Shown here piece after piece: positions 38,289 through 52,330 of a DNA stretch of 64,000 nucleotides (the stretch's first letter is position 1; the number at the start of each line of letters is the position of its first letter). The stretch is from Micromonospora ferruginea. Its GTDB lineage: Bacteria; Actinomycetota; Actinomycetes; Mycobacteriales; Micromonosporaceae. The stretch spans positions 2,600,001 to 2,664,000 of the forward strand of contig NZ_CP059322.2 of the NCBI RefSeq assembly GCF_013694245.2, in the 5' to 3' direction. The position numbers and the translations under genes are program-made. The notes beneath the pieces were generated by a model. That model searched no databases, was not told the DNA's origin, and worked only from the letters and a program-made list of their open reading frames with translations.

Positions 38289-39296
38289 CTAGCCGGTGAC
38301 GCCGGTCGCCGCCGGATCGGCGGTGCCGGTCGGGACCGCGTACGCGTCGAGCGCGGCGACCGCCTGGGCGCGGACCTGCTCGGCCAGCTCGGCCGGCGCC
38401 ACCACGGTCACCTCCGGGCCCAGCCCCAGCACGAACCGGCGGGCCCAGCCCAGATCGGTGACCCGCAGCGACACCAGCCACTGCTCACCGTCGGCCTCGA
38501 CCCGCTCGCACGGGTAGTATTCGGTGATCCACCGCTCGCCCCGGCCGACCCGCAGCGTGATCAACGGCAGGTCGGCCGAGGGCCGGAACACCCCGTCGCT
38601 CAGGTCGTGCGGGCGGGCCTGCGGCGGCACCACGGCCCGCTCCGGCAGTTCGGTGACCGCGTCGATCCGGTCGGCGCGGAACAGCCGTACCGCCTCGGCC
38701 CGGCGGCACCACGCCTCCACGTACGCCCGGCCACCGACCATCAGCATGCGCAGCGGGTCGATGGTGCGTTCGGTGGTCTCGTCGCGGGCCGGCGTGTAGT
38801 AGGTGATCCGCAGCGCCCGGCCCCGCTCGACCGCAGCGCGCAGCTCGCGCGCCCGGGCGGTGTCGCCCGGCAGCCGCACCTCGACCGGCGCGCCGGCCAG
38901 GTCACCCGCCGCGCTCTCGATCTTGGCGAGGGCCCGCTCCACCGCCTCCCGGTTGGCCACCCCGGGCGTCTCGACGAGCATCCGCAACGCCACCACCAGG
39001 GCCAGCGCCTCGTCCGGGGTGAGCCGCAGCGGCCGGTCGATGCCGGCGTCGTAGGTGATGGTCACCCGGTCACCGTCGAACGCCATGTCGATCAGGTCGC
39101 CGGGGCCGTAACCGGGCAACCCGCACACCCACAGCAGCTCCAGGTCCTCCCGCAACTGCTTCTCGGTCACCCCGAGGTCGTGCGCCGCCTCGGCGATCTC
39201 GATGCCCGGGCGGGCCAGCAGGTAGGGCACCAGGTTGAGCAGCCGGGCCAACCGGTCGGCCGAGGCGCGACCGCCGCGGGTCGCCGGCCGGGTCAC
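38289..39296 (-). CDS. pafC: WYL-domain regulator PafC
   Basis: A 335-residue transcription regulator. An N-terminal winged helix (DRLARLLNLVPYLLARPGIEIAEAAHDLGVTEKQLREDLELLWVCGLPG) is followed by a WYL domain (RALRITYYTPARDETTERTIDPLRMLMVGGRAYVEAWCRRAEAVRLFRADRI) and a C-terminal WCX segment. PafB and PafC form a heterodimer that activates DNA-damage genes in mycobacteria. GTG 39296 overlaps the pafB stop (GTGA). Confidence 0.93.
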   Translation of the reverse strand: MTRPATRGGRASADRLARLLNLVPYLLARPGIEIAEAAHDLGVTEKQLREDLELLWVCGLPGYGPGDLIDMAFDGDRVTITYDAGIDRPLRLTPDEALALVVALRMLVETPGVANREAVERALAKIESAAGDLAGAPVEVRLPGDTARARELRAAVERGRALRITYYTPARDETTERTIDPLRMLMVGGRAYVEAWCRRAEAVRLFRADRIDAVTELPERAVVPPQARPHDLSDGVFRPSADLPLITLRVGRGERWITEYYPCERVEADGEQWLVSLRVTDLGWARRFVLGLGPEVTVVAPAELAEQVRAQAVAALDAYAVPTGTADPAATGVTG

Positions 39297-40291
39297 CGGA
39301 CACCCCCGGTGACCGCCAGCTCGTCGTGCCGGGCGGCGACCTCCTTCAACCGCTGGATGACCGCCTCACGCACCTCCGGCGGCTCCAGCACCCGCACGTC
39401 CGGGCCGTACCCGACGACCTGGCCGGCCAGGAAGTCGGCGTCGGCGTACGGCAGCACCAGCCGGTCGCCGTCCGGGCCGGCGTGGCTCTCCACCGCCCAG
39501 CGCCGCAACCCGGCGGCGCGGCCCGGCGCCACCAGCACCGTCGCCCGGCCGGTGCGCTCCACCGGCCCCGACCAGCGGGCCACGTGGCTGATCAGGTCCA
39601 CCCCGGCGGGCGGCTGGTAGGCGCCCGGCTCACCGGTGGCCCGCACCGTGCCCACCACCCGGGACAGCCGGAAGCAGCGGGTCGCCGCCCGGTCCAGGTC
39701 GTGGCCGACCACGTACCACCGGCCGCGCCAGCAGACCACTCCCCACGGCTGCACCCGGCGGCGCGTCGGCGCGTCCCGGTCCGGCACCCGGTAGTCGAAG
39801 GTGACCTCCCGCCGGTCGCGCGCGGCGGCGGTCAGCGGCGCGAACGCCGGGTCGACCGTCACCATCGGCTCCAGACCCAGGGTGGCCTGCGGATCCACGT
39901 CGATGCCGGCGGCACGCAGCTTCGCCAGCCCGGACGACGCGGCGGCGGCCAGGCCGGCGTGCTGCCACAGCCGGGCCGCGATGCCCACCGCGGCGGCCTC
40001 GTCCGGCTCCAGCGGGATGTCGGGCAGGGCGTATTCCCGGTGGGCGATCCGGTAGCCCGGCTCGGCGTCGAAGACGCTGGCCGTCCCGGTCTCCAGCGGC
40101 ACGCCCAGCTCCCGCAGCTCGGCCTTGTCCCGCTCGAACTTGCGCTGGAACGCCTCGTGGTCCTTGGCGTCGTCCGGATCGTGCTCGTAGCCGGGCACGG
40201 TCGCGGCGATCTGGGCGGCGGTCAGGAAACGCCGCGTGGACAGCAGGCAGATCACCAGGTTGACCAGGCGTTCGGTACGGGTCCGGGACAC
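39293..40291 (-). CDS. pafB: WYL-domain regulator PafB
   Basis: A 332-residue partner of PafC with the same layout: a winged helix at the N-terminus (TERLVNLVICLLSTRRFLTAAQIAATVPGY), then a WYL domain (REVTFDYRVPDRDAPTRRRVQPWGVVCWRGRWYVVGHDLDRAATRCFRLSRV). GTG 40291 is chosen because SRTRTERLVNLVI is the conserved start. The first gene of the paf operon here, it is transcribed away from the cation-efflux gene. Confidence 0.93.
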   Translation of the reverse strand: MSRTRTERLVNLVICLLSTRRFLTAAQIAATVPGYEHDPDDAKDHEAFQRKFERDKAELRELGVPLETGTASVFDAEPGYRIAHREYALPDIPLEPDEAAAVGIAARLWQHAGLAAAASSGLAKLRAAGIDVDPQATLGLEPMVTVDPAFAPLTAAARDRREVTFDYRVPDRDAPTRRRVQPWGVVCWRGRWYVVGHDLDRAATRCFRLSRVVGTVRATGEPGAYQPPAGVDLISHVARWSGPVERTGRATVLVAPGRAAGLRRWAVESHAGPDGDRLVLPYADADFLAGQVVGYGPDVRVLEPPEVREAVIQRLKEVAARHDELAVTGGVR

Positions 40292-40396
40292 GTACCGAAC
40301 GCTAGCAGCCCGCACGTCCGACGCGGGCACCCGCGCGGGCGCGGCGCGGCCCGGGCTCGACGGGCGGCCCGTCCGGACCGGTCATAGGGTGAGCGG

Positions 40397-41386
40397 ATGG
40401 CGGAAGCGGAAGTCAAGACCGAGAGCGTCGGCACCGTCGTGGTCGCCGGCGCGGCGAACCTCGCCATCGCGATCGCCAAGCTGGTCGCCGGCCTGATCTC
40501 CGGCTCCGCGGCGATGCTCTCCGAGGCCGCCCACTCGGTCGCCGACACCACCACCGAGGTGCTGCTCTACCTGGCGCTGCGCCGTGGCGCACGGCCCGCC
40601 GACCCCCGCCACCCCTTCGGGTACGGCAAGGAGAGCTACGTCTGGGCGTTCCTCGCCGCGCTGTTCACGTTCGTGGCCGGCGCCGGCTTCGCCATCACCC
40701 ACGGCGTCACCACCATTCTGGTGCACGAGCACACCGGCAGCTACCTGACCGCGTACGTCGTGCTGGCCGTCTCGTTCGCGATCGAGTCGGTGTCGCTGGC
40801 CCGGGCCGTCCGACAGGTACGCGGCGAGTCGAAGCGCTGGGGCACCACCCCCCGCCGCTACCTGCGGCTCACCGCCGACACCACGGTCAAGGCGGTCTTC
40901 CTGGAGGACAGCGCCGCGCTGATCGGCCTGCTGCTCGCCGCCGCCGGCCTCACCCTGTCGCACCTCACCGGCGACGAGCTCTGGGACGGGATCGCCTCGA
41001 TCCTCATCGGCGTGCTGCTGCTGGTGGTCGCCGCCGTCCTCGCCCGCAGCAACATCTCGCTGCTGGTCGGCCGCGCCGTGTCGGAGCGGGTGCACCGCCG
41101 GATCGAGCAGGAGCTGGCGCAGCTCCCCACCGTCGACCGGGTCGACACGTTGATGACCATGGTCCTCGGCCCGGACGACATCCTCGTCGCCGCCAAGGTC
41201 GACTTCCGCGACGACGCCACCGGCGCCGAGATCGAGGCCGCCGCCGACGAGGCCGAACGGCGGCTCACCGGGGAGTTCCCGGAGATCGCGTACGTCTTCC
41301 TCGACCCGACCCGCTCCCGAGGCGCCGGCCGCCGCGCCCGGACCACCCAGGACGAGCCCGACCGGCCGGTCGACCAGGAGGCCTGA
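40397..41386 (+). CDS. Cation diffusion facilitator (zinc/metal efflux)
   Basis: A 329-residue CDF protein. Six membrane helices contain the metal site residues in SEAAHSVADTTTEV (helix 2) and the second site near RLTADTTVKAVFLEDSAALIG (helix 5), where the usual HxxxD is replaced by D-x-x-x-D-like acids. The cytoplasmic C-terminal domain (ERVHRRIEQELAQLPTVDRVDTLMTMVLGPDDILVAAKVDFRDD) dimerises. It exports Zn, Mn or Fe using protons. GGTGAG precedes ATG 40397. It is unrelated to the paf/pup genes around it, except by location. Confidence 0.92.
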   Translation: MAEAEVKTESVGTVVVAGAANLAIAIAKLVAGLISGSAAMLSEAAHSVADTTTEVLLYLALRRGARPADPRHPFGYGKESYVWAFLAALFTFVAGAGFAITHGVTTILVHEHTGSYLTAYVVLAVSFAIESVSLARAVRQVRGESKRWGTTPRRYLRLTADTTVKAVFLEDSAALIGLLLAAAGLTLSHLTGDELWDGIASILIGVLLLVVAAVLARSNISLLVGRAVSERVHRRIEQELAQLPTVDRVDTLMTMVLGPDDILVAAKVDFRDDATGAEIEAAADEAERRLTGEFPEIAYVFLDPTRSRGAGRRARTTQDEPDRPVDQEA

Positions 41387-41429
41387 CCCGGCCGGCGGCC
41401 ACCCGGTCGCCGGCCGATAGCGTGCCGGC

Positions 41430-42515
41430 ATGGTGCGATGGCGGTCCGGCACGGTCACGACGGTACGGCGGCGGTGGGCCGGCGCGGTCGAACTCGACGT
41501 CACACTGCCCGACGGCGCCCGGATGCGGGCCCTCGCCTACCCGGCGCTGGTCGGCGACCCGGAACCCGGCGACCGGGTGCTGCTCAACGCCGGCGCCCTG
41601 CTGATGGGCCTCGGCACCGGCGGGTACGCGCTCGTCGTCGCGCTGCCCGACCGGCTCCCCGCCGACCCGCCGCAGGCCGGCGACACCCGCGACGCCGGGC
41701 ACCTGGTCAAGGCCCGCTACACCCCGCTGCAACCGATCCTGCTCGGGGTGGACGAGGAAGCCTCCCCGCACCACGCGCGCCTGGCCGACGCCGAGACCAT
41801 CGACGGGATGCCGGTGGTCACCGCCGACCTGCACTCCGCGCTGCCCGCCGTCCTGGCCGGCGTGCACGCCGACGCCCCCGGCGCCCGGGTGGCCTACCTG
41901 CTCACCGACGGCGGCGCGCTGCCCGCCTGGTTCTCCCGCACCCTCGCCGGGCTCGCCGGCCACCTCGCCGGCACGGTCACCGTGGGGCAGGCGTTCGGCG
42001 GCGACCTGGAGGCCACCACCCTGCACAGCGGCCTGCTCGCCGCCCGGCACGTGCTCCACGCCGACCTGGCGATCGTCGCCCAGGGGCCGGGCAACCTCGG
42101 CACCGGCACCCGCTGGGGGTTCTCCGGGGTCGCCGTCGGCGAGGCCGTCAACGCCGTCGCCACGCTCGGCGGACGCCCGGTCGGCTCGCTGCGCGTCTCC
42201 GGCGCCGACCCCCGACCCCGGCACCGCGGCGTCTCCCACCACAGCCTCACCGCGTACGGCCGGGTGGCGCTGGCCCCCGCGGAGCTGGTCGTGCCGGACG
42301 GCCTCGGGGAGGATCTGGCCGCCGCCGTGACGGCGGCGCTGGCGCCCCTGGCCGAGCGGCACCGGATCGTCACCGTACCCACCGACGGCCTCGACGCGGC
42401 GCTACGCGCCAGCCCGGTCGGACTGTCGACGATGGGCCGCGGCCTCGACGCCGACCACGCCTACTTCCTGACCGCCGCCGCCGCCGGCCGGCACGCCGCC
42501 GGCCTGCTCGACTGA
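41430..42515 (+). CDS. DUF3866 family protein
   Basis: A 361-residue soluble protein matching the actinobacterial DUF3866 family, usually found near the paf/proteasome genes: VELDVTLPDGARMRALAYPALVGDPEPGDRVLLNAGALLMGLGTGGYALVVALP, HLVKARYTPLQPILLGVDEEASPHH, and GPGNLGTGTRWGFSGVAVGEAVNAV. No catalytic signature is obvious to me. It follows the CDF gene by 43 bp and may share its transcript. Confidence 0.8.
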   Translation: MVRWRSGTVTTVRRRWAGAVELDVTLPDGARMRALAYPALVGDPEPGDRVLLNAGALLMGLGTGGYALVVALPDRLPADPPQAGDTRDAGHLVKARYTPLQPILLGVDEEASPHHARLADAETIDGMPVVTADLHSALPAVLAGVHADAPGARVAYLLTDGGALPAWFSRTLAGLAGHLAGTVTVGQAFGGDLEATTLHSGLLAARHVLHADLAIVAQGPGNLGTGTRWGFSGVAVGEAVNAVATLGGRPVGSLRVSGADPRPRHRGVSHHSLTAYGRVALAPAELVVPDGLGEDLAAAVTAALAPLAERHRIVTVPTDGLDAALRASPVGLSTMGRGLDADHAYFLTAAAAGRHAAGLLD

Positions 42516-42528
42516 GCCGAACCCAGGC

Positions 42529-42753
42529 TCAGCCGAACCAGAGGATCAAGCCGATCCAGGCGACCACGATCACCACCAGCGCGACCGCCATCACCCAGGT
42601 CGGGATCCGGTGGTCACCGCGGCGGTTGCGCTCGATCTCCGCGCGGATCTTCTCCCGCCGCCGGTCGATCCAGTTGAGCTTCTCGGTGCCGCCGTCCCGC
42701 TCGCGGCCGGAGGTCTGGCCGCGCTCGCGGCCCTGCGGTTCGGAAGTGTCCAT
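42529..42753 (-). CDS. Small single-pass membrane protein
   Basis: A 74-residue protein: a charged N-terminal half (DRRREKIRAEIERNRRGDHRIP) followed by one C-terminal helix (WVMAVALVVIVVAWIGLILWFG), so tail-anchored. It sits 60 bp after pafA in the same direction. Basic arginine-rich helix before a membrane anchor suggests interaction with nucleic acid or anionic lipid, but no family is recognised. Confidence 0.75.
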   Translation of the reverse strand: MDTSEPQGRERGQTSGRERDGGTEKLNWIDRRREKIRAEIERNRRGDHRIPTWVMAVALVVIVVAWIGLILWFG

Positions 42754-42813
42754 GGCGACGCCAGCGTACCGGTGCCCGGGCGGCCGGCGTCGGGCACCGG
42801 CCGCCCACCGGCC

Positions 42814-44172
42814 TCACATGCTCGCGATCAGCCGCTCCACCCGCTCGTCGTACGCCCGGAACGGGTCCTTGCAGAGCACCGTGCGCTGCGCCTGGTCGTT
42901 CAACTTCAGGTGCACCCAGTCGACGGTGAAGTCACGCCGCTTCTCCTGCGCGTGCCGGATGAACTCGCCGCGCAGCCGCGCCCGGGTGGTCTGCGGCGGC
43001 GTCTCCTTCGCCTCGAAGATCTCCGGGTCGTTGGCCACCCGGTCCACCTCGCCCCGACGCTCCAGCAGCCCGTAGAGGCCCCGGCCGCGCCGCAGGTCGT
43101 GGTAGGCCAGATCCATCTGCGCCACCCGCGGATGCGACAACGGCAGGTCGTGCTTGCGCTGGTAACGCTCGATCAACTTCAGCTTGCTCACCCAGTCGAT
43201 CTCCCGCGCCACCGGGTCCAGGTCACCGGTCTCCACCGCCCGCAACACCCGCGCCCACAGGTCCACCACCCGCTTGGCGGTCTGGTCACCGCCCCGGCGC
43301 TCCACGAACTCCGTCGCCTTGGCCAGGTATTCCTGCTGGATCTCCAACGCCGACACCTCCTTGCCGGAGGACAGGCGGACCTTGCGCCGGCCGGTGATGT
43401 CGTGCGACACCTCGCGGATCGCCCGAATCGGGTTCTCCAACGTCAGGTCCCGCATCACCACGCCCGCCTCGATCATCCGCAGCACGATGTCGGCGGTGCC
43501 GACCTTCAGCAGCGTGGTGACCTCGTTCATGTTGGAGTCACCGACGATCACGTGCAGCCGGCGGTAGCGCTCCGCGTCCGCGTGCGGCTCGTCGCGGGTG
43601 TTGATGATCGGCCGGCTGCGGGTGGTCGCCGAGGAGACGCCCTCCCAGATGTGCTCCGCACGCTGCGACAGGCAGTAGACCGCGCCGCGCGGCGTCTGCA
43701 ACACCTTGCCCGCGCCGCAGATCAACTGCCGGGTCACCAGGAACGGGATCAGCACGTCGGCCAGCCGGCCGAACTCGCCGTGCCGCGACACCAGGTAGTT
43801 CTCGTGGCAGCCGTACGAGTTGCCGGCCGAGTCGGTGTTGTTCTTGAACAGGTAGATCTCGCCCGCGATGCCCTCGTCGTGAAGCCGCTTCTCCGCGTCG
43901 ACGAGCAGCCCTTCCAGGATCCGCTCACCGGCCCGGTCGTGGGCCACCAGGTCGGTCACCGAGTCGCACTCCGGTGTCGCGTACTCCGGATGCGAACCGA
44001 CGTCCAGATAGAGGCGGGCGCCGTTGCGGAGGAACACGTTGCTCGACCGGCCCCACGACACCACCCGCCGGAACAGGTACCGCGCGACCTCGTCGGGGGA
44101 CAGACGGCGTTGCCCGCGATAGGTGCAGGTGACGCCGTACTCGGTTTCGAGGCCGAAGATTCGCCGCTCCAT
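42814..44172 (-). CDS. pafA: Pup ligase PafA
   Basis: A 452-residue ligase of the carboxylate-amine/glutamine-synthetase-like fold that joins Pup through its C-terminal Glu to substrate lysines, using ATP. The signature [16 protein letters not shown] (Glu9 and Glu11 bind ATP/Mg), [43 protein letters not shown] and the [23 protein letters not shown] motif are present. It is shorter than Dop (505 residues here), and it lacks the Dop-specific loop. It lies downstream of prcA across a hairpin. Confidence 0.97.
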
Positions 44173-44254
44173 GATGAGACATTAGCCGCCCGGAGCCCCC
44201 GATGGGCAGCGCGCGGCGTCACCGTCCTGCGGCGGCCCCGCCCCGGACAGCAAC

Positions 44255-44287
44255 GGACCCCGCCACATCGCCGACGTGACGGGGTCC
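44255..44287 (-). terminator. Hairpin after prcA
   Basis: Arms GGACCCCG and CGGGGTCC with an inner CAC/GTG pair, immediately downstream of the prcA stop on the minus strand. It could separate the pup-prcA transcript from pafA. Confidence 0.6.
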
Positions 44288-44297
44288 GACACCGGCC

Positions 44298-45131
44298 TCA
44301 CTCGCCGGACGTGTCCTCCTGGTTGCCCTCCAGGTCGGCGGAACCGGCCGACGTGGTCGGCTTCTTCGCCTCCTCGGTCGGCACCGTCGGGGTCTTCGCC
44401 CGCCCCGGCGCCGGCGCGACGTCCGCCTCCGCGTCGCCGTCCAGCAGCGCGGACAACGCCGCGCCGGTGATCCGCCGGAACGTACGGCCCACCCGGGCCC
44501 GGTCCAGCACCGCCACCTCGAGCTGGTTCGCGGCGATCGTGCGGGCCGCCCCGCCGTCACCGCCGACGCTGCTCAGCGCCTTCATCGCGGCGCGCACCGC
44601 CTCGGACAGCGACATCTCCGGCCGGTGCTCGTTCTTCAGCACCCCGGCGATCGCCTCGGACTGCCCACCCATCGCCATCCGGCCCGGCTCGTCGTTGACC
44701 GAGCCGTCGTAGGTCACCCGGTAGAGCGAGTCGTCCTCCGCCGACGCGCCCACCTCGGCCACGCAGATCTCCACCTCGAACGGCTTCGACTGCTCGGTGA
44801 AGATGGCGCCCAGCGTCTGCGCGTACGCGTTCGCCAGCGCCAGGCCGTTCACGTCCCGCCGGTCGTAGCTCAGGCCGTTCAGGTCGGCCATCCGCACGCC
44901 CGCGCGGCGCAGGTTCTCGAACTCGTTGTAGCGCCCGACCGCGGCGAAGCCGATCCGGTCGTAGATCTCGCTGACCTTGTGCAACGTGCTGGACAGGTTC
45001 TCGGCGACGAAGAGCACGCCGCCGGCATAGCTCAGGACCACCGCGCTGCGGCCCCGGGCGATGCCCTTGCGGGCCAGCTCGGAGCGGTCGCGCATGATCT
45101 GCTCGGGCGAGGCGTAGAACTGCATGGCCAC
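44298..45131 (-). CDS. prcA: 20S proteasome alpha subunit PrcA
   Basis: A 277-residue alpha-type subunit: [80 protein letters not shown]. It has no catalytic Thr; the alpha rings gate the chamber. The C-terminus is a long Pro/Thr/Glu tail ([22 protein letters not shown]) longer than in mycobacteria. GTG 45131 is preferred because AAGGAG lies 10 bases before it, while ATG 45125 would be 16 bases away. It follows prcB by 63 bp. Confidence 0.95.
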
Positions 45132-45194
45132 GGCGGTGGTTCTCCTTCGTGCCTGTGGTGCGGGACTGCTGACTCGGTGGGGGTGGGAGCGGCG

Positions 45195-46034
45195 TCAGCC
45201 GCCCGGGTTCTCCATCCGGCCGGACACCACACCCTCCGCGATCGCCGCCGTCTCGGCGTCGGTGAGCCGGTGGGTGCCGTCGGCCGTCGCGGTCATCACG
45301 ACCGGGTAGATCCGCCGGGTCAGGTCGGGACCGCCGGTGGCGGTGTCGTCGTCCGCCGCGTCGTAGAGCGCCTCGACGGCCAACCGCGTCGCGTCGTCGA
45401 TCGACAGGCCGGCCCGGAAACGCTTCTTCAGCGCCGACTTGGCGAACAGCGAACCGGAGCCGATCGCGTCGTAGCCGGTCTCCTCGTAGGGGCCGCCGGT
45501 GACGTCGAAGCTGAAGATCCGGCCGGCCCGCGCCGGGTCGCTCGCGGCCAGGTCGAAGCCGGCGAACAGCGGCACCACCGCCAGGCCCTGCATGGCCGCG
45601 CCCAGGTTGCCCCGGATCATCGAGGCCAGCCGGTTGGCCTTGCCGTCGAGCGAGAGCATCGCGCCCTCGATCTTCTCGTAGTGCTCCAGCTCCACCTGGA
45701 ACAGTCGCATCAGCTCGATGCCGATGCCCGCCGTGCCCGCGATGCCGACCAGCGAGTACGCGTCGGCCGGGTGCACCTTCTCGATGTCGCGCTGGGCGAT
45801 CAGGTTGCCCATGGTGGCTCGCCGGTCGCCGGCCATGACCACGCCGCCGGCGGCGGAGATGGCCACGATCGTGGTCGCGTGCGGCGCCAGGTCGGCGGCC
45901 ATGCCGGGCGGCAGCGGCCGACGGCCGGGCAGCATCTCGGGGGCCGCCTTGCTCAGGAACGTGGTGAAGGAGGACGTCCCCGCGTTGGTGAACACATCTG
46001 GAAGACGCCCGGATGGATCAAAACCCGCTGCCAC
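45195..46034 (-). CDS. prcB: 20S proteasome beta subunit PrcB
   Basis: A 279-residue beta-type subunit, made as a precursor. Residues 1-53 form the propeptide ([36 protein letters not shown]...) and cleavage before Thr54 in PHATTIVAI exposes the catalytic N-terminal threonine. The later [20 protein letters not shown] and [20 protein letters not shown] are conserved, with Lys/Asp partners. GTG 46034 follows GAGAGG by six bases. The first 82 bp overlap the HNH gene in another frame, unusual in such loci and implying coupled translation. Confidence 0.96.
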
Positions 46035-46630
46035 GTGGTTCCTCTCAGGTATGTGATCGCCCCGGCCAGGTTGTCGAGGTCGTCCTTGAACTGGCCGAGA
46101 CCGCCGTTGCAGTTGAAGCAGAGTATCCCGCGCACCCATCCGGTGCGATGATCGTGGTCCAGATGTTCCGGATCGGGACGCCGACAGATCGCGCACCGAC
46201 CGCCCTGCTCGGCCAGGAGCTCCTGGAACTCCTTCTCACCGATGCCGTAGCGGCGACGTAGGTGGTACTCCCGGCTGCCGCCGTAGGGCCGCTGCTTGGT
46301 CTCGTTGCCACGGGCGATGTGGCAAGGCTTGCAATAGCTGTGCCGGCCGCTCGCGTTCGTCGTGCGGGGAAAGTCGTCGACCGGCTTGATCTGCTCACAG
46401 TCCGGACACCATTTGAGGCCGTCCCCGACCGGCTCGGCGGCCTTGCGCTGCGGCGCGATCCCGCGCTTCCGTCGACTTGCCTCGGAACGCGCGACGGCAC
46501 AGGTCTTGCAGTAGAACGCCAGCCCGTCGGGCCGCCGTCGGTTACGGTGAAACGCCGACGGCGGCAAGGATCGGCCGCACTGAGGACAGAGCTTGTCCGA
46601 AGCCCCCGGCAAATCGGACATAAGCCTCAT
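45953..46630 (-). CDS. HNH (recombination endonuclease VII-type) nuclease in the pup operon
   Basis: A 225-residue protein between pup and prcB. It has several zinc-binding CxxC pairs (LCPQCG, YCKTCA, WCPDCE, YCKPCH, RCAICR) and the endonuclease VII-type HNH core [24 protein letters not shown], whose His-Asp-His and Asn residues would bind metal and DNA. ATG 46630 overlaps the pup stop (ATGA) with a GGGGG upstream, so translation is coupled to pup. Its 3' end overlaps prcB by 82 bp. An HNH gene here recurs in other actinobacteria to my knowledge, but its role in the Pup pathway is unknown. Confidence 0.88.
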
Positions 46631-46833
46631 TGACCCCCTTTCTGCACATATCCTCTCACGAATTCCTCGGCGTTCTCCTCCAGGACGGAGTCGATCTCGT
46701 CGAGCAGGTCGTCGACGTCCTCGGTGATCTCGGCGTGCCGCTCGGCAACCTCGGGGTTGGCCTGAGCGGTGACCTCCTCGACCTCCTCGTGGGACTTGCC
46801 GGACTGGGTCTGCCCACCCTCTTGTGCCGCCAT
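46627..46833 (-). CDS. pup: Prokaryotic ubiquitin-like protein Pup
   Basis: A 68-residue, largely disordered acidic tag ending GYVQKGGQ. The terminal Gln must be deamidated to Glu by Dop before PafA can attach it. The helical proteasome-binding stretch is VDDLLDEIDSVLEENAEEFVRGY. GGAGG seven bases before ATG 46833 is strong. Its stop overlaps the HNH gene by 4 bp. Confidence 0.97.
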   Translation of the reverse strand: MAAQEGGQTQSGKSHEEVEEVTAQANPEVAERHAEITEDVDDLLDEIDSVLEENAEEFVRGYVQKGGQ

Positions 46834-46887
46834 GGTGGTGCCTCCTCCACGATCGCCTGCGATCAACTTACCTCGCGCGGACGACGA

Positions 46888-46928
46888 AAGGCCCGTCGCG
46901 CGCGGGGTTCCGGCACTCGACGGGCCTT
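46888..46928 (-). terminator. Terminator of dop
   Basis: Perfect 11-bp arms AAGGCCCGTCG and CGACGGGCCTT with a 19-nt loop, 13 bp past the dop stop on the minus strand. It isolates the dop transcript from pup. Confidence 0.75.
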
Positions 46929-46940
46929 CCGGCATCCTGG

Positions 46941-48458
46941 TCAGCCGCCGGTGAGCATCTCCAGCAGATCCTTGGCGCTCTCGCACCGGTCGAAGAGCTG
47001 GCCGACGTGCGCCCGGGTGCCCCGCTCGGGCTCCATCATCGGCACCCGGACGAGCGACTCGCGGCCCACGTCGAAGATGACCGAGTCCCAGCTCGCGGCG
47101 ACCACCTCGGAGGCGTACCGGTCCAGGCAGCGGCCGCGGAAGTAGGCCCGGGTGTCCTCCGGCGGCTCGGTCATCGCGGTGCGGGTCTGCTCGTCGGTGA
47201 GCAGCGTCTTCATCGAGCCGCGCTGGACCAGCCGGTGGTAGAGGCCCTTCTCCGTCCGCACGTCGGAATACTGCAGGTCGACCAGTTGCAGCTTGTGCGA
47301 GCCCCAGCCGAGCTTCTCCCGCTCCCGGTAGCCCTCCAGCAGGCGCAGCTTGGCCACCCAGTCCAGCTCGTCGGCGCACTCGAAGGCGTCGCGGCCGAGC
47401 CGGTCCAGCACGCTCTCCCAGCGGTCCAGGACGTCGGCGGTCTGCGCGTCCACGTCGGCGCCGTAGCGGTCGTCCACGAAGGAACGGACCCGGTCGAGGT
47501 AGGCCCACTGCACGTCCAGCGCGGTGAGCCGGCGACCGTCGCGCATCCGCATGAGGTGCTTCAGCGACGGGTCGTGGCTGACCGCGCGCAGCTCGGCGAC
47601 CGGGTCGGCGATGCCCAGGTCCGCGCCGAGCGCCTTCTCCTCGATCATGGTGAGGATCAGCGCGGTGGTGCCGACCTTGAGGAAGGTGGAGATCTCGGAG
47701 AGGTTGGCGTCGCCGATGATGACGTGCAGCCGGCGGTATTTGTCGGCGTCGGCGTGCGGCTCGTCGCGGGTGTTGATGATGGGCCGCTTGAGCGTGGTCT
47801 CCAGCCCGACCTCGACCTCGAAGAAGTCGGCGCGCTGGGAGATCTGGAAGCCGCTCTGGCCGCCGTCCTGGCCGATGCCGACGCGGCCGGCGCCGCAGAC
47901 GATCTGCCGGGTGACGAAGAACGGCGTCAGGTACGCCACGATGTCGGCGAACGGCGTCTGCCGGCGCATCAGGTAGTTCTCGTGGGAGCCGTAGCTGGCG
48001 CCCTTGTTGTCGGTGTTGTTCTTGTAGAGGTGGATGGGGTGGGTGCCCGGGATGGTGGCCGCCCGCCGGGCCGCCTCGGCCATCACCCGCTCCCCCGCCT
48101 TGTCCCAGCGCACCACGTCCAGCGGCGTGGTCACCTCGGGCGTGGAGTATTCGGGGTGGGCGTGGTCGACGTAGAGCCGGGCGCCGTTGGTGAGTATCAC
48201 GTTGGCGAGCCCGAGGTCCTCGTCGGCGAGCGCCTCGGCCGGGTCGTACGCCGCCCCGGAGTAGGTGAATCCGCGGGCGTCGCGCAGTGGCGACTCCTCC
48301 TCGTAGTCCCAGCGTGCCCGCCCGCCCCGGTTGAGTTCGGGTCGTGCTCCGTAGGCGTTGACCACCTGCGACGAGGTGACCATCGGGTTGGCTCCGGCCT
48401 GGCCGGGCACGGAGATGCCGTACTCGACCTCGGTGCCCATGATCCGTCTGACGCTCAT
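46941..48458 (-). CDS. dop: Pup deamidase / depupylase Dop
   Basis: A 505-residue paralogue of PafA that deamidates the Pup C-terminal Gln and also removes Pup from substrates. The start [15 protein letters not shown] (Glu10, Glu12 for Mg-ATP) and [40 protein letters not shown] and [23 protein letters not shown] are conserved. The Dop-specific insertion after the first strand ([40 protein letters not shown]) is present, distinguishing it from PafA. ATG 48458 follows GCAGG; an extension to 48497 lacks support. Confidence 0.96.
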
Positions 48459-48593
48459 CGACCTGCCCGCTCCGCTCGCCGTCGGGTTCCCCGTCACGTC
48501 GAGCGTAGTCGGCGCGTGGACGGTAGGTGGTGTGCCGGGCCCGGGGCGGGCGGCCGGAGCGGGGTTCCGCCCCGGCCGGCCCGGTGCCTCGGG

Positions 48594-49364
48594 TCAGAAG
48601 AAGCGGTACATCTCGGCCGCCGCCGGCTCGGTCTCCGAGGCCTTCGGGGCGGTGACGGTGACCGGCTCGCCGAAGCTGTGCATCTTCATCTCGTTGTCGA
48701 CCTTCCCGGCGGCCGTGTCGAACGTGTACGTGAGCAGGGTGAGCCGGCCCGCGTCGTCGAGCGTGGCCTCGAACGGCACCGACTTGGTCTTGAGCACCTT
48801 GAACGCGTTCCGCAGCGTCCCCCGCTCGCTCTCGCTGGAGGCGGCCGCGACGGCCTTGTCGGGGTCGGCGACGCCGGTGTAGCGGCCGTCGCCGGCCGGC
48901 TCGGCGGAGACCACCCCGCCGAGGATGCCGGCCTGCGCGCGGATGTCGAGGCCCTGGGCCAGTTGGCCGTCGGGGCGCAGCCGCTTGCGGTCCAGCTTGA
49001 GCCAGCGCTTGCTCTCGGACTTGTCCTGCTGGACGTAGACGGCGTCGGCGGTGACGACCATGCTGACCGGCTCGGGGGTGGCCATGTCCAGCGTCATGCC
49101 GCCGGTGGCGGGGTCGAGGGCGGAGCGCATGGTGACGGTCTGGTTGCCCGCCTTGATGACGACGTCCATCCGGACGGACTTCTCCAGGCTGCGCTGGAAG
49201 CCCTGCCGGATCTCGGCGGGCGCCTCGGCGGCGGTGGGCGTGGAGGCGGACGCCGAGGCCGACGGCGCGGCGCCCGGGTCGGATGCGGGGTCGGTGGAGG
49301 TGCCGCAGGCGGCGAGCAGGACCGTCAGGGAGACGGCCAGGGCCGGGACAAGTGATCTACGCAC
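48594..49364 (-). CDS. LppX/LprAFG-type lipoprotein
   Basis: A 256-residue lipoprotein: lipobox LLAAC with Cys20 followed by a Ser/Ala/Pro spacer, then a curved beta-sheet LppX_LprAFG domain (AEIRQGFQRSLEKSVRMDVVIKAGNQTVTMRSALDPATGGMTLDMATPEPVSMVVTADAVYVQQDKSESKRWLKLDRKRL). These bind hydrophobic ligands such as glycolipids in mycobacteria. GTG 49364. It lies between dop and the ARC gene in the same direction. Confidence 0.9.
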   Translation of the reverse strand: MRRSLVPALAVSLTVLLAACGTSTDPASDPGAAPSASASASTPTAAEAPAEIRQGFQRSLEKSVRMDVVIKAGNQTVTMRSALDPATGGMTLDMATPEPVSMVVTADAVYVQQDKSESKRWLKLDRKRLRPDGQLAQGLDIRAQAGILGGVVSAEPAGDGRYTGVADPDKAVAAASSESERGTLRNAFKVLKTKSVPFEATLDDAGRLTLLTYTFDTAAGKVDNEMKMHSFGEPVTVTAPKASETEPAAAEMYRFF

Positions 49365-49458
49365 GGGTGCAGACCCTAGCGGGCGGCGTCCGTTCGTGTG
49401 GCCCCGGAAGAGACCGACCGGGACGGCGCCTGCGCGGCGCCGCCCCGGTGGATCGATC

Positions 49459-51240
49459 TCAGAGGTACTGGCCGGTGTTGCTGGCGGTCTCGATGGACCG
49501 GCCGGCCTCGGCGCCCTTGCCGCCGGAGACGAGCGTGCGGATGTAGACGATCCGTTCGCCCTTCTTGCCGGAGATGCGCGCCCAGTCGTCGGGGTTGGTG
49601 GTGTTGGGCAGGTCTTCGTTCTCGCGGAACTCGTCGACGCACGCGTCGAGCAGGTGCTGCAGGCGCAGCCCCTTGCGCCCGGAGGTGAGGAACTCCTTGA
49701 TGGCCATCTTCTTGCCCCGGTCGACGATGTTCTGGATCATCGCGCCGGAGTTGAAGTCCTTGAAGTAGAGGACTTCCTTGTCGCCGTTGGCGTAGGTGAC
49801 CTCGAGGAAGCGGTTCTCCTCGGTCTCCGAGTACATCCGGAGGACCACGGCGTCGATCATGGCGGCCACGGTGGCCCGCGGGTCGCTGCCGTGTTCGGCC
49901 AGGTCGTCGGCGTGCAGGGGCAGGTCGGCGAGGACGTACTTGGAGAAGATGTCCTTGGCCGCCTCGGCGTCCGGCCGCTCGATCTTGATCTTCACGTCGA
50001 GCCGGCCCGGGCGCAGGATCGCCGGGTCGATCATGTCTTCCCGGTTGGAGGCGCCGATGACGATGACGTTCTCCAGGCCCTCCACGCCGTCGATCTCGCT
50101 GAGCAACTGCGGGACGATGGTGTTCTCCACGTCGGAGGAGACGCCGGAGCCGCGGGTGCGGAAGATCGAGTCCATCTCGTCGAAGAACACGATCACCGGG
50201 GTGCCCTCGCCGGCCTTCTCCCGGGCGCGCTGGAAGATCAGCCGGATGTGCCGCTCGGTCTCGCCGACGTACTTGTTGAGCAGCTCGGGACCCTTGATGT
50301 TGAGGAAGAAGCTGGTGTGCCGCTCCTTCCCCTCGCGCTCGGCGATCTTCTTGGCCAGGGAGTTGGCCACCGCCTTGGCGATGAGCGTCTTGCCGCAGCC
50401 GGGCGGGCCGTAGAGCAGGATGCCCTTCGGCGGCCGGAGCTGGTGCTCGCGGAACAGGTCGGCGTGCAGGAACGGCAGCTCCACCGCGTCGCGGATCTGT
50501 TCGATCTGCGACTGGAGGCCACCGATGTCCTCGTAGCCGACGTCGGGCACCTCCTCGAGGACCAGCTCCTCGACCTCGCTCTTCGGGATCCGCTCGTACG
50601 CGTACGCCGAGCGGGGCTCGATCATGAGCGAGTCGCCGGCCCGGATCGCGCTGCCGATCAGGGTCTCGGCGAGGTGCACGATCCGCTCCTCGTCGGAGTG
50701 GGACACCACCAGCGCCCGGTCACCCGGAGCGCCGTCGGGACCCGCCAGGATCTCCTTGAGCATCACCACCTCGCCGACCCGTTCGAAACCGAACGCGTCG
50801 ACGATGTTGAGCGCGTCGTTGAGCAGGACCTCCTGGCCACGGCTCAGCTCGTCGACCTCCAGCGAGGGCGAGACGGCGACGCGGAGCTTGCGCCCGCCGG
50901 TGAACACGTCCACCGTGCCGTCGTCGTGCCTCGCCAGGAAGACGCCGTAACCGCTCGGCGGCTGGGCGAGTCGGTCGATCTCCTCCTTGAGCGTCACGAT
51001 CTGCGCGCGAGCCTCCTTGAGGGTGCTCACGAGCCGCTCGTTGTTCTCGTTCAGCCGTGCCAACTGCGCCTGGGTGGCGGCCAGCCGCTCTTCGAGCTGC
51101 CGGACGTGTCGGGGGCTTTCGGTCAACTTGCGTCGCACCAGAGCGAGTTCCTCTTGCAGGAACGCGACCTGCGTGGAGAGATCGTGGGCTTCCTTCTCCC
51201 ACCGTGCGGCGCGCGAGTCCGCGTCGTCGCTGCGTGCCAC
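49459..51240 (-). CDS. arc: Proteasome-activating AAA ATPase ARC (Mpa)
   Basis: A 593-residue AAA ATPase. Residues 10-90 form a coiled coil (Leu/Glu/Gln-rich) that captures Pup; two OB domains follow ([52 protein letters not shown]). The AAA module has Walker A GPPGCGKT at 278-285, Walker [13 protein letters not shown] and the arginine-finger region. The C-terminal GQYL carries the Tyr-X ending that opens the 20S gate. GGAGG six bases before GTG 51240 sets the start, although the frame runs on to 51750. It is separate from pup and 95 bp before the lipoprotein. Confidence 0.96.
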
Positions 51241-51417
51241 GTCCCACCTCCCCGGGGGGCTTGAACGTTCTGAGCTAACACTAGCCGCTATGAGCCCGAT
51301 TCGGTCCTCCGCAACGCGCTCGTCACCGAAGCTTGATCGCCAAGGGCTGGTCGACGGGCGGGTACGGGCGTTCGGGTACCGTCGGAGTCCGGGACGGGAG
51401 AACATGGGGGGTGCTTC

Positions 51418-51711
51418 GTGACCGACGTCGCGACCGACCAGTTGCAGGTCTGGGTGGATCAGGATCTCTGCACGGGTGACGGGCTCTGCGTGCAGTACGC
51501 GCCGGAGGTCTTCGAGTTCGACGTCGACGGCCTGGCGTACGTCAAGGGCGCCGACGGTGAGCTGCGGCTGGCGCCGGGCGCCCGGGTGGACGTGCCGGAG
51601 CACCTGCGCCTCGAGGTGATCGACTCGGCGAAGGAGTGCCCGGGCGAGTGCATCCACGTGGTGCGGGGCAGCGACGGCGTCGAGGTGGCCGGCCCGGAGG
51701 CCGAGGACTGA
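51418..51711 (+). CDS. Small ferredoxin
   Basis: A 97-residue acidic iron-sulfur protein: [32 protein letters not shown], then [12 protein letters not shown]. The Cys spacing (CX5C, then CPGEC) supports a single [3Fe-4S] or [4Fe-4S] cluster as in P450-type actinobacterial ferredoxins. No P450 is adjacent. GTG 51418 has a G-run upstream. It is divergent from the ARC gene, 178 bp apart. Confidence 0.87.
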
Positions 51712-51757
51712 GACCGATGCGGCGGGCCGGGGACACCGTCCCCGGCTCACCGTCGTC

Positions 51758-52330
51758 TCAGAGCATGGGACGGCCGACGACCGAGGCGACCAGCCGGGCG
51801 AATTCCTCCAGCCGGGTGATCTGCCCGGCGCCGCCGTCGTCGAGCGTCTTGCCGAAGCGCAGCGCGTCGTGCCGGGGGGTGCCCACCGCCTCGTCGCTCG
51901 GCGGCGCCTCGTCCAGCGAGCTGAGCAGCAGGTAGACGTCGATGCTGTCGACCCGGACCGTGCCGTCGTCGGCGCGGGTGAGCCGGCGCCGGCAGCCGAC
52001 CTCGGTGACGGTGGAGACCGGCACCACGCGCAGCGACGAGGTCATCGCGCCCGGTGGCCCCTCCCCCGGCGGGACGTCCTCGCCGTGCCAGAGCACCAGC
52101 CGGCTGCCGTCGCAGACGACGACCTCCTGCCACACCCCGTTGACCTCGTTGACGAAGCGTTCCAGGGTGAAGCCGAGCACCGAGGCGCCCCGCAGCACCC
52201 CGCCGAGCGCCTCCAGGGCGATGTCGGGGTCACGCAGGTAGGCCCGGGCGGCCGACTCCAGGTCGGCGTAGGGCGACCAGTCGGGGAAGACGGCGGGCAT
52301 CTCGCCGTTGCCGTAGCCGGGACTGCTCAC
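51758..52330 (-). CDS. Conserved hypothetical protein next to trmI
   Basis: A 190-residue soluble protein: [75 protein letters not shown]. No domain is recognised. GGGAGG before GTG 52330 gives a clear start. It is 153 bp after trmI on the same strand and I believe a similar gene often neighbours trmI in actinobacteria. It has no signal peptide or membrane segment. Confidence 0.75.

Follow-up and report, generated by a model that had tools for sequence, protein, structure and literature searches.

Why should a gene for a predicted DNA-cutting enzyme lie between pup and prcB, among the genes of the Pup-proteasome system? We addressed this question in Micromonospora ferruginea, on a window of 64,000 nucleotides (contig NZ_CP059322.2, positions 2,600,001 to 2,664,000). 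The genome is a single 6.7-Mb contig, and its sole match to the Endonuclease VII family PF02945 is the open reading frame (ORF) at pup-prcB. On the minus strand of the window, mpa/ARC, a lipoprotein gene, dop, pup, the nuclease gene, prcB, prcA and pafA follow one another, with pafB and pafC further on (Table 1). The lipoprotein gene (48594-49364, between mpa and dop) falls just short of the SCO4651 lipoprotein family model, at 63.1 bits for a cut-off of 65. The reading that we prefer, and to which we give somewhat less than an even chance, is that an old chromosomal enzyme of the Endonuclease VII (DHHRN) type is lodged in the pup-prcB gap and would serve in DNA conflict, not in protein tagging.

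Table 1. Features of the pup-prcB locus and its surroundings, in window positions.
Feature	Position	Strand	Remarks
Endonuclease VII (DHHRN/HNH) gene	45953..46630	-	225 aa from ATG 46630; PF02945 E 1.7e-23
pup	46627..46833	-	PF05639 E 3.6e-29; ends GGQ; stop TGA 46629-46627
prcB	45195..46034	-	TIGR03690 E 2e-108
prcA	44298..45131	-	TIGR03691 E 1.7e-106
pafA	42814..44172	-	TIGR03686 E 3.9e-230
dop	46941..48497	-	TIGR03688 E 2.3e-225
pafB	39293-40330		assigned by WYL/WCX domains and position
pafC	38289-39296		own HTH_PafC model
Nuclease/prcB overlap, 82 nt	45953..46034	-	prcB start GTG 46034
Terminator-like hairpin stretch between dop and pup	46878..46945	-	-45.5 kcal/mol, z -6.7
Exchangeable N-terminal half (type I here), pup stop to nuclease-domain start	46286..46626	-	
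Zinc module 1, Cys15, 18, 41, 44	46499..46588	-	cysteines in 66-69/70 aligned rows
Zinc module 2, Cys75, 78, 100, 103	46322..46408	-	69-70/70 rows; resembles part of Hpy99I
Nuclease domain, aa 116-196	46043..46285	-	PF02945; pN/pS about 0.13-0.31
Stretch with D158, H159, H161, R167, N175 (catalytic)	46106..46159	-	70/70 rows

A preliminary description of this DNA had proposed that the nuclease is translationally wired between its two neighbours, in a unit isolated by the dop terminator and close to the genes of the DNA damage regulator PafBC. The layout itself is as described: the nuclease ATG sits on the pup stop (ATGA), the 3' end of the gene runs 82 nt into prcB, whose GTG start has AGAGGA just upstream, and pafB and pafC are indeed encoded nearby. 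The terminator is supported by a strong hairpin, since none of 200 shuffles folded as low; the consensus promoter/terminator scanner listed no terminator at dop-pup because it accepts loops of 3-8 only. We infer that a single message carries pup, the nuclease and prcB. The wiring through ATGA, however, is not general. The start offset is -4 in only 9 of 32 intact copies of the family and in 13 of 62 named Micromonosporaceae copies, and a conserved coupling of this kind was rejected. Met4 (ATG 46621, 5 nt past the pup stop) is nearly invariant in an alignment of 70 rows and may be the true start. The 82-nt overlap with prcB is kept in 30/32 and 60/62 of the same two sets, and measures 49 nt in 28 of the 29 Streptomyces loci having a catalytic ORF; its length is set by where a stop falls within prcB.

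Several other searches on this DNA gave little. An RNA element at the prcB start was rejected, the fold being no better than that of shuffles (z -0.22), and Rfam gave no match over 42000-52000. Repeats in the nuclease gene amounted to no more than two families, both short and of two copies, plus two inverted pairs that were weak. No methylase was found among the annotated ORFs between 38289 and 51711.

The protein has its nuclease domain at the C-terminal end. The Endonuclease_7 match spans aa 123-196 of 225 and reaches 82.7 bits for a curated cut-off of 23.6, and the phage family phrog_2633 (endonuclease VII) is matched at E 1.7e-44. Sequence matches were also obtained with T4 Endonuclease VII (E 3.9e-7) and with the restriction enzyme Hpy99I (E 1.2e-6), the PDB match covering only query residues 133-186. 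The core CxxC - DHxH - R - CxxCN, including four zinc cysteines, and with it all of the catalytic D, H, H, R and N, was present in 70/70 aligned rows; this conservation follows in part from the selection of rows on DHxH and CxxCN, so that R167 is its only free test. An AlphaFold2 model was built from the 70 aligned relatives (mean pLDDT 82), and its pTM of 0.53 makes the relative placement of the domains uncertain. With VIA-align, zinc module 2 (model residues 65-109) matched Hpy99I (PDB 3fc3) at Z 5.3 over 45 residues and 2.3 A, and the nuclease core matched T4 Endonuclease VII at Z 5.6 over 55 residues, values below 8 being modest. The best Foldseek match in the PDB was again Hpy99I, at E 2.1e-4 but with a TM of 0.17-0.20. 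Few rows of the VIA list cover the N half, for which a family absent from it is still possible.

Most copies have two zinc modules by motif, and some have one or three. In M. sonchi (L272) and M. endophytica (L275), the two modules have merged in frame to leave a single one, which would fit unequal exchange between repeats. Five loci of the f19 family group (L150, L151, L152, L154 and L155) carry two Endonuclease VII domains in one ORF by pup.

How does this architecture compare with known enzymes? In passages of Fang et al. 2018 (PMC6083498), C-terminal Endonuclease VII motifs define a clade of homing and restriction enzymes, while the resolvase clade has an N-terminal motif and whole-length similarity to T4 Endonuclease VII. 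The latter (PDB 1e7d, 1e7l), a Holliday-junction resolvase, resembles our protein in its nuclease core, by sequence and by fold, and this is what would favour a housekeeping junction resolvase acting in recombination or repair. However, the T4 motif is N-terminal, whereas ours lies behind the zinc modules and aligns with T4-type structures over 133-186 only, outside what characterizes the resolvase clade in those passages. The gene is moreover frequently lost, and an enzyme reading DNA structure would give no reason for the swapped N halves described below. We regard a resolvase as very improbable. Hpy99I, a type II enzyme, is similar in nuclease sequence and zinc module 2, but its relatives adjoin a methylase (PMC6083498, in the part concerned), and none was found near the pup-prcB nuclease over 38289-51711. 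From the same passages, there is also a likeness with F-CphI and the DHHRN homing family, which share the C-terminal motif, two zinc-binding CxxC pairs and the free-standing gene. F-CphI is an intron-tied cyanophage gene, whereas the present one is chromosomal, sits in a proteasome operon and has an exchanged N half, homing being only putative.

We then asked how widespread the arrangement is. Pup was found in 149 of 150 genomes of the family, and 55 of these, from 16 of 43 genera, had a co-directional Endonuclease VII match no more than 3 kb downstream of pup. In the genus of M. ferruginea all 16 genomes had such a match, damaged copies included. Across the class sample, in which 241 genomes matched, 46 of 147 Pup places had an adjacent match among the matches listed, and an open catalytic ORF at pup-prcB occurred in nine family groups (f1, f10, f12, f15, f19, f20, f23, f39 and f41). 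A scan of named genomes by sequence alone, which kept 80 relatives out of 567, placed 80/80 between pup and prcB. In the group f20/g66, taken as Streptomyces by inference (from the prcB sequence and relatives, among others), 104 of 121 genomes had a nuclease-domain match, and the best 30 of these 104 all sat between pup and prcB. Position is thus conserved, and the arrangement is old. Outside chromosomes, the same domain was found in phage endonuclease VII genes (phrog_2633 and others), but all 1812 matching records out of 50697 were below 60% identity, the listed rows at about 32-34%. Ten viral contigs matched at 29-48% identity over partial stretches, and the matches in 19 of 72556 plasmids all stopped short of 80% coverage.

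Some loci have unusual spacings. In Micromonospora arida (L251) and M. orduensis (L274), about 1650 nt separate the dop end from the pup stop, for a usual distance of about 320, and the insert holds an open frame of 433-442 aa, whose start we take to be partly like that of a membrane acyltransferase. In Geodermatophilus amargosae (L288), about 990 nt lie between the nuclease stop and prcB and about 1270 nt between the dop end and the pup stop, hence extra DNA on both sides.

A fixed place in the operon across many families is what one would expect if the nuclease worked with the Pup-proteasome, for instance as a toxin-like nuclease restrained by pupylation or as an effector of the PafBC damage response. 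The prcB overlap, the hairpin isolating pup and what follows, and the proximity of pafB and pafC go in the same direction. We therefore examined 125 pup-prcB loci of the family: all 55 with an Endonuclease VII match and 70 of the 94 others, both pup and prcB being required. This count omits L106, where the pup reading ran into prcB; the other 23 of the 149 Pup genomes have no PF02945 match near pup. The nuclease was intact in 32 loci, short in 6, present as a remnant in 41 and undetectable in 46. Hence 93 of 125 loci have no intact nuclease, 47 of them retaining short copies or remnants. Controls of the remnant search were clean (0/194 on reversed gaps and 0/194 on downstream DNA). An enriched class sample of 69 loci gave 33 intact, 1 short, 14 remnants and 21 with nothing. 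On reading, L137, scored as short, turned out to be open over its full length; L160 is likewise full-length, but its first zinc pair is damaged.

On the prcB tree, the intact state changed at least 18 times, against 27-31 times in shuffles (three only), so that presence is clustered, yet the gene was lost or regained many times. The nuclease is dispensable to the pup-prcB locus and is not kept wherever the Pup-proteasome system is kept. In the f21 family group of the class sample, none of 20 genomes had a pup-adjacent match among the matches listed. Together with the scarcity of ATGA coupling, this makes a partner of the Pup-proteasome improbable. The preliminary description had suggested a nuclease linking pupylation to DNA damage or phage defence, and had named frequent loss of the nuclease from otherwise intact loci as the observation that would speak against it. 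Such loss is what we found. The nuclease with an intact core, widespread at pup-prcB in actinobacteria, stands; its functional tie to pupylation or to the PafBC response is left unsupported.

The N-terminal half gave a different picture. Among 64 named full-length loci (those of the 80 with an ORF of at least 195 aa and a gap below 700), two N types were distinguished by motif, and by hand for L280, L281 and L283: type I in 26 loci and type II in 38. Of 16 pairs chosen by hand, 11 were discordant in type. In all 11, DNA identity was 88-95% in pup, fell to 36-62% over the initial 270 nt of the nuclease gene, then rose to 83-100% in the last two nuclease bins and stood at 90-100% in the part of prcB past the overlap. 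Winogradskya humida and W. consettensis, for example, differ in N type while their aligned dop, prcB and prcA proteins are identical. On the host tree, no link of N type with phylogeny was detectable: 19 changes were counted where shuffling gave 20.4 on average (as low in 62 of 200 cases), and 12 for 13.2 within Micromonospora/Verrucosispora alone (54/200 as low). Both types coexist in the genus of M. ferruginea, where 61 genomes comprised 18 strong type I and 18 strong type II N halves.

Trees of the two halves, built on 60 loci with L280-L283 left out, disagree. In the N-half tree type I is monophyletic (support 100), and monophyly of Micromonospora is rejected (p 2.5e-5). The C-half tree has 2 genus changes for 3 genera, which is the minimum; here monophyly is not rejected for Micromonospora (p 0.48) but is rejected for type I (p 2e-59). 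Some link to type remains in the C half, with 14 changes for a shuffled mean of 19.8 and minimum of 16. Within Micromonospora, the Spearman correlation with the host was weak for the C half (0.38) and 0.13 for the N half. Within Micromonospora, Actinoplanes and Catellatospora, the type I sequences form a clade per genus, so that the types predate these three genera.

A parallel situation was found in Streptomyces, where the N halves of 36 loci were divided into three clusters (a split into two only isolated L176, which was excluded). The clusters changed 15 times on the flank tree, for a shuffled mean of 16.1 and minimum of 10, and monophyly was rejected by the flanks for all three clusters (p 7.6e-10, 0.0019 and 1.3e-4). 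The C half rejected it for two clusters (p 7e-62 and 2e-58), cluster 'a' being the exception (p 0.19), and gave 10 type changes for 16.1 shuffled, minimum 12. In one pair, L294/L310, the entire nuclease gene has been replaced between near-identical prcB genes. As for donors, a search for silent N cassettes in the 61 genomes of the genus of M. ferruginea gave no extra matches beyond weak ones (E at best 6e-6) and ones that extended the match at the known place, and the type II N half had no phage match at E 0.001. These comparisons show that N halves are swapped through recombination among deep classes of alleles that predate the genera.

Is this exchange more than drift at a recombining locus? 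The gene could be an old passenger of no present function, whose N types are shuffled by neutral recombination between species; decay is widespread, and recombination is common at pup-prcB. We measured substitution rates in 1830 pairs of 61 loci (the 64 minus rows without the domain motif). In the C part, median pS was 0.12-0.18 where that of the prcB end was 0.1-0.2, and 0.60 where it was 0.45-0.7, with a pN/pS of about 0.13 to 0.31. Purifying selection thus acts on the nuclease part, which diverges at about the pace of the locus. In the N half, median pS was 0.42-0.69 even within a type, and pN was 0.08-0.32 within types and 0.43-0.45 between them; the N half has thus been drawn from much older alleles, its regime of selection being uncertain with pN/pS climbing with distance and N halves so divergent. 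The pN/pS of the nuclease part, the presence in 70/70 rows of R167, on which rows were not selected, and two deep N types common to three genera argue against a mere passenger, which we find hard to credit, although N-type exchange could be partly neutral. The comparisons rather show a catalytic domain inherited with the locus under purifying selection, in a gene that often decays.

The more serious alternative is a free-standing DHHRN homing endonuclease, such as F-CphI, which would cut empty or other-type alleles at pup-prcB, be copied in and then decay. The C-terminal motif with D, H, H, R and N, placed in the homing/restriction clade by the passages of PMC6083498 cited above, agrees with it, and so do the single fixed site (80/80 named relatives, 30/30 Streptomyces loci), the intact, decayed and empty loci found side by side with at least 18 changes of state, and the lack of an adjacent methylase among the ORFs searched. 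However, the nuclease half groups by genus, with a silent divergence near that of prcB in close pairs. In the top 22 pairs ranked by N-half similarity relative to host distance (21 rows listed), flanking DNA was similar to about the same degree and gave no clear sign that the gene had lately moved between distant hosts. Long-lived balanced types are also unlike the usual course of fixation and decay. Homing is thus possible, if on the unlikely side. In the trees the nuclease half does not appear to pass from genus to genus, which is why conflict or defence is our preferred reading.

A recognition module in conflict with changing targets would be expected to undergo domain-precise exchange, to persist as long-lived types and to be lost often, hence our restriction-like reading. 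The N half, with its one to three zinc modules, would read a target, whether DNA sequence, modification or structure, and the C half would cut DNA. Under changing selection by phages and mobile or incoming DNA, several recognition types would persist side by side. Type I restriction specificity subunits exchange recognition halves between otherwise alike alleles in this manner. They are different proteins, whereas here putative recognition and cutting reside in one polypeptide with no methylase known. With no methylase found (38289-51711), self-protection is unexplained under the restriction-like reading, and the own genome would have to be spared by another route: absence of the target, a need for modified or branched DNA, or control at the protein level. 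The operon site may provide steady co-expression and hold the nuclease at a locus that is never lost. PADLOC returned only a weak generic REase_II match (32 bits, E 2.8e-8). Phage defence, which the preliminary description had raised, or another DNA conflict is a fair guess; the gene looks more like a conflict or defence enzyme housed in the operon than like a working part of it.

A bolder version can be put forward, which we hold to be distinctly unlikely as a whole. Here pup-prcB would be a standing site of allelic exchange for a one-protein, methylase-free restriction or self/non-self nuclease, with at least two balanced zinc-module recognition types older than Micromonospora, Actinoplanes and Catellatospora, a parallel set in Streptomyces, and a level or self-protection set by the proteasome genes.

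The family itself already has a name, 'endonuclease VII domain-containing protein' being the annotation given to relatives on plasmids. Our literature searches, in which the S. coelicolor proteasome literature was only partly covered, returned no paper placing an Endonuclease VII nuclease at pup-prcB. The word 'nuclease' had no match in the searched main text of PMC2588565, PMC8223512, PMC6466877, PMC9775585 and PMC6017811; PMC6585502 was consulted for its passages on SCO164x and the proteasome; and 'endonuclease VII' and 'pupylation' occur together in one paper, PMC11323726, listed as a mycobacterial Nei2 study. As far as these searches go, allele exchange at the pup-prcB nuclease would be new.

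A caution follows for operons of this kind, that function should not be read from position alone. The sister-species pairs of different type, with near-identical nuclease halves and flanks, are natural chimaeras in which recognition by the N half is directly testable, and the decayed or empty loci of relatives are natural deletion controls. If our reading is true, an enzyme that goes unmentioned in the searched passages on pupylation, the proteasome and Streptomyces would turn out to be a polymorphic DNA-conflict enzyme, long carried by a much-studied actinobacterial operon.
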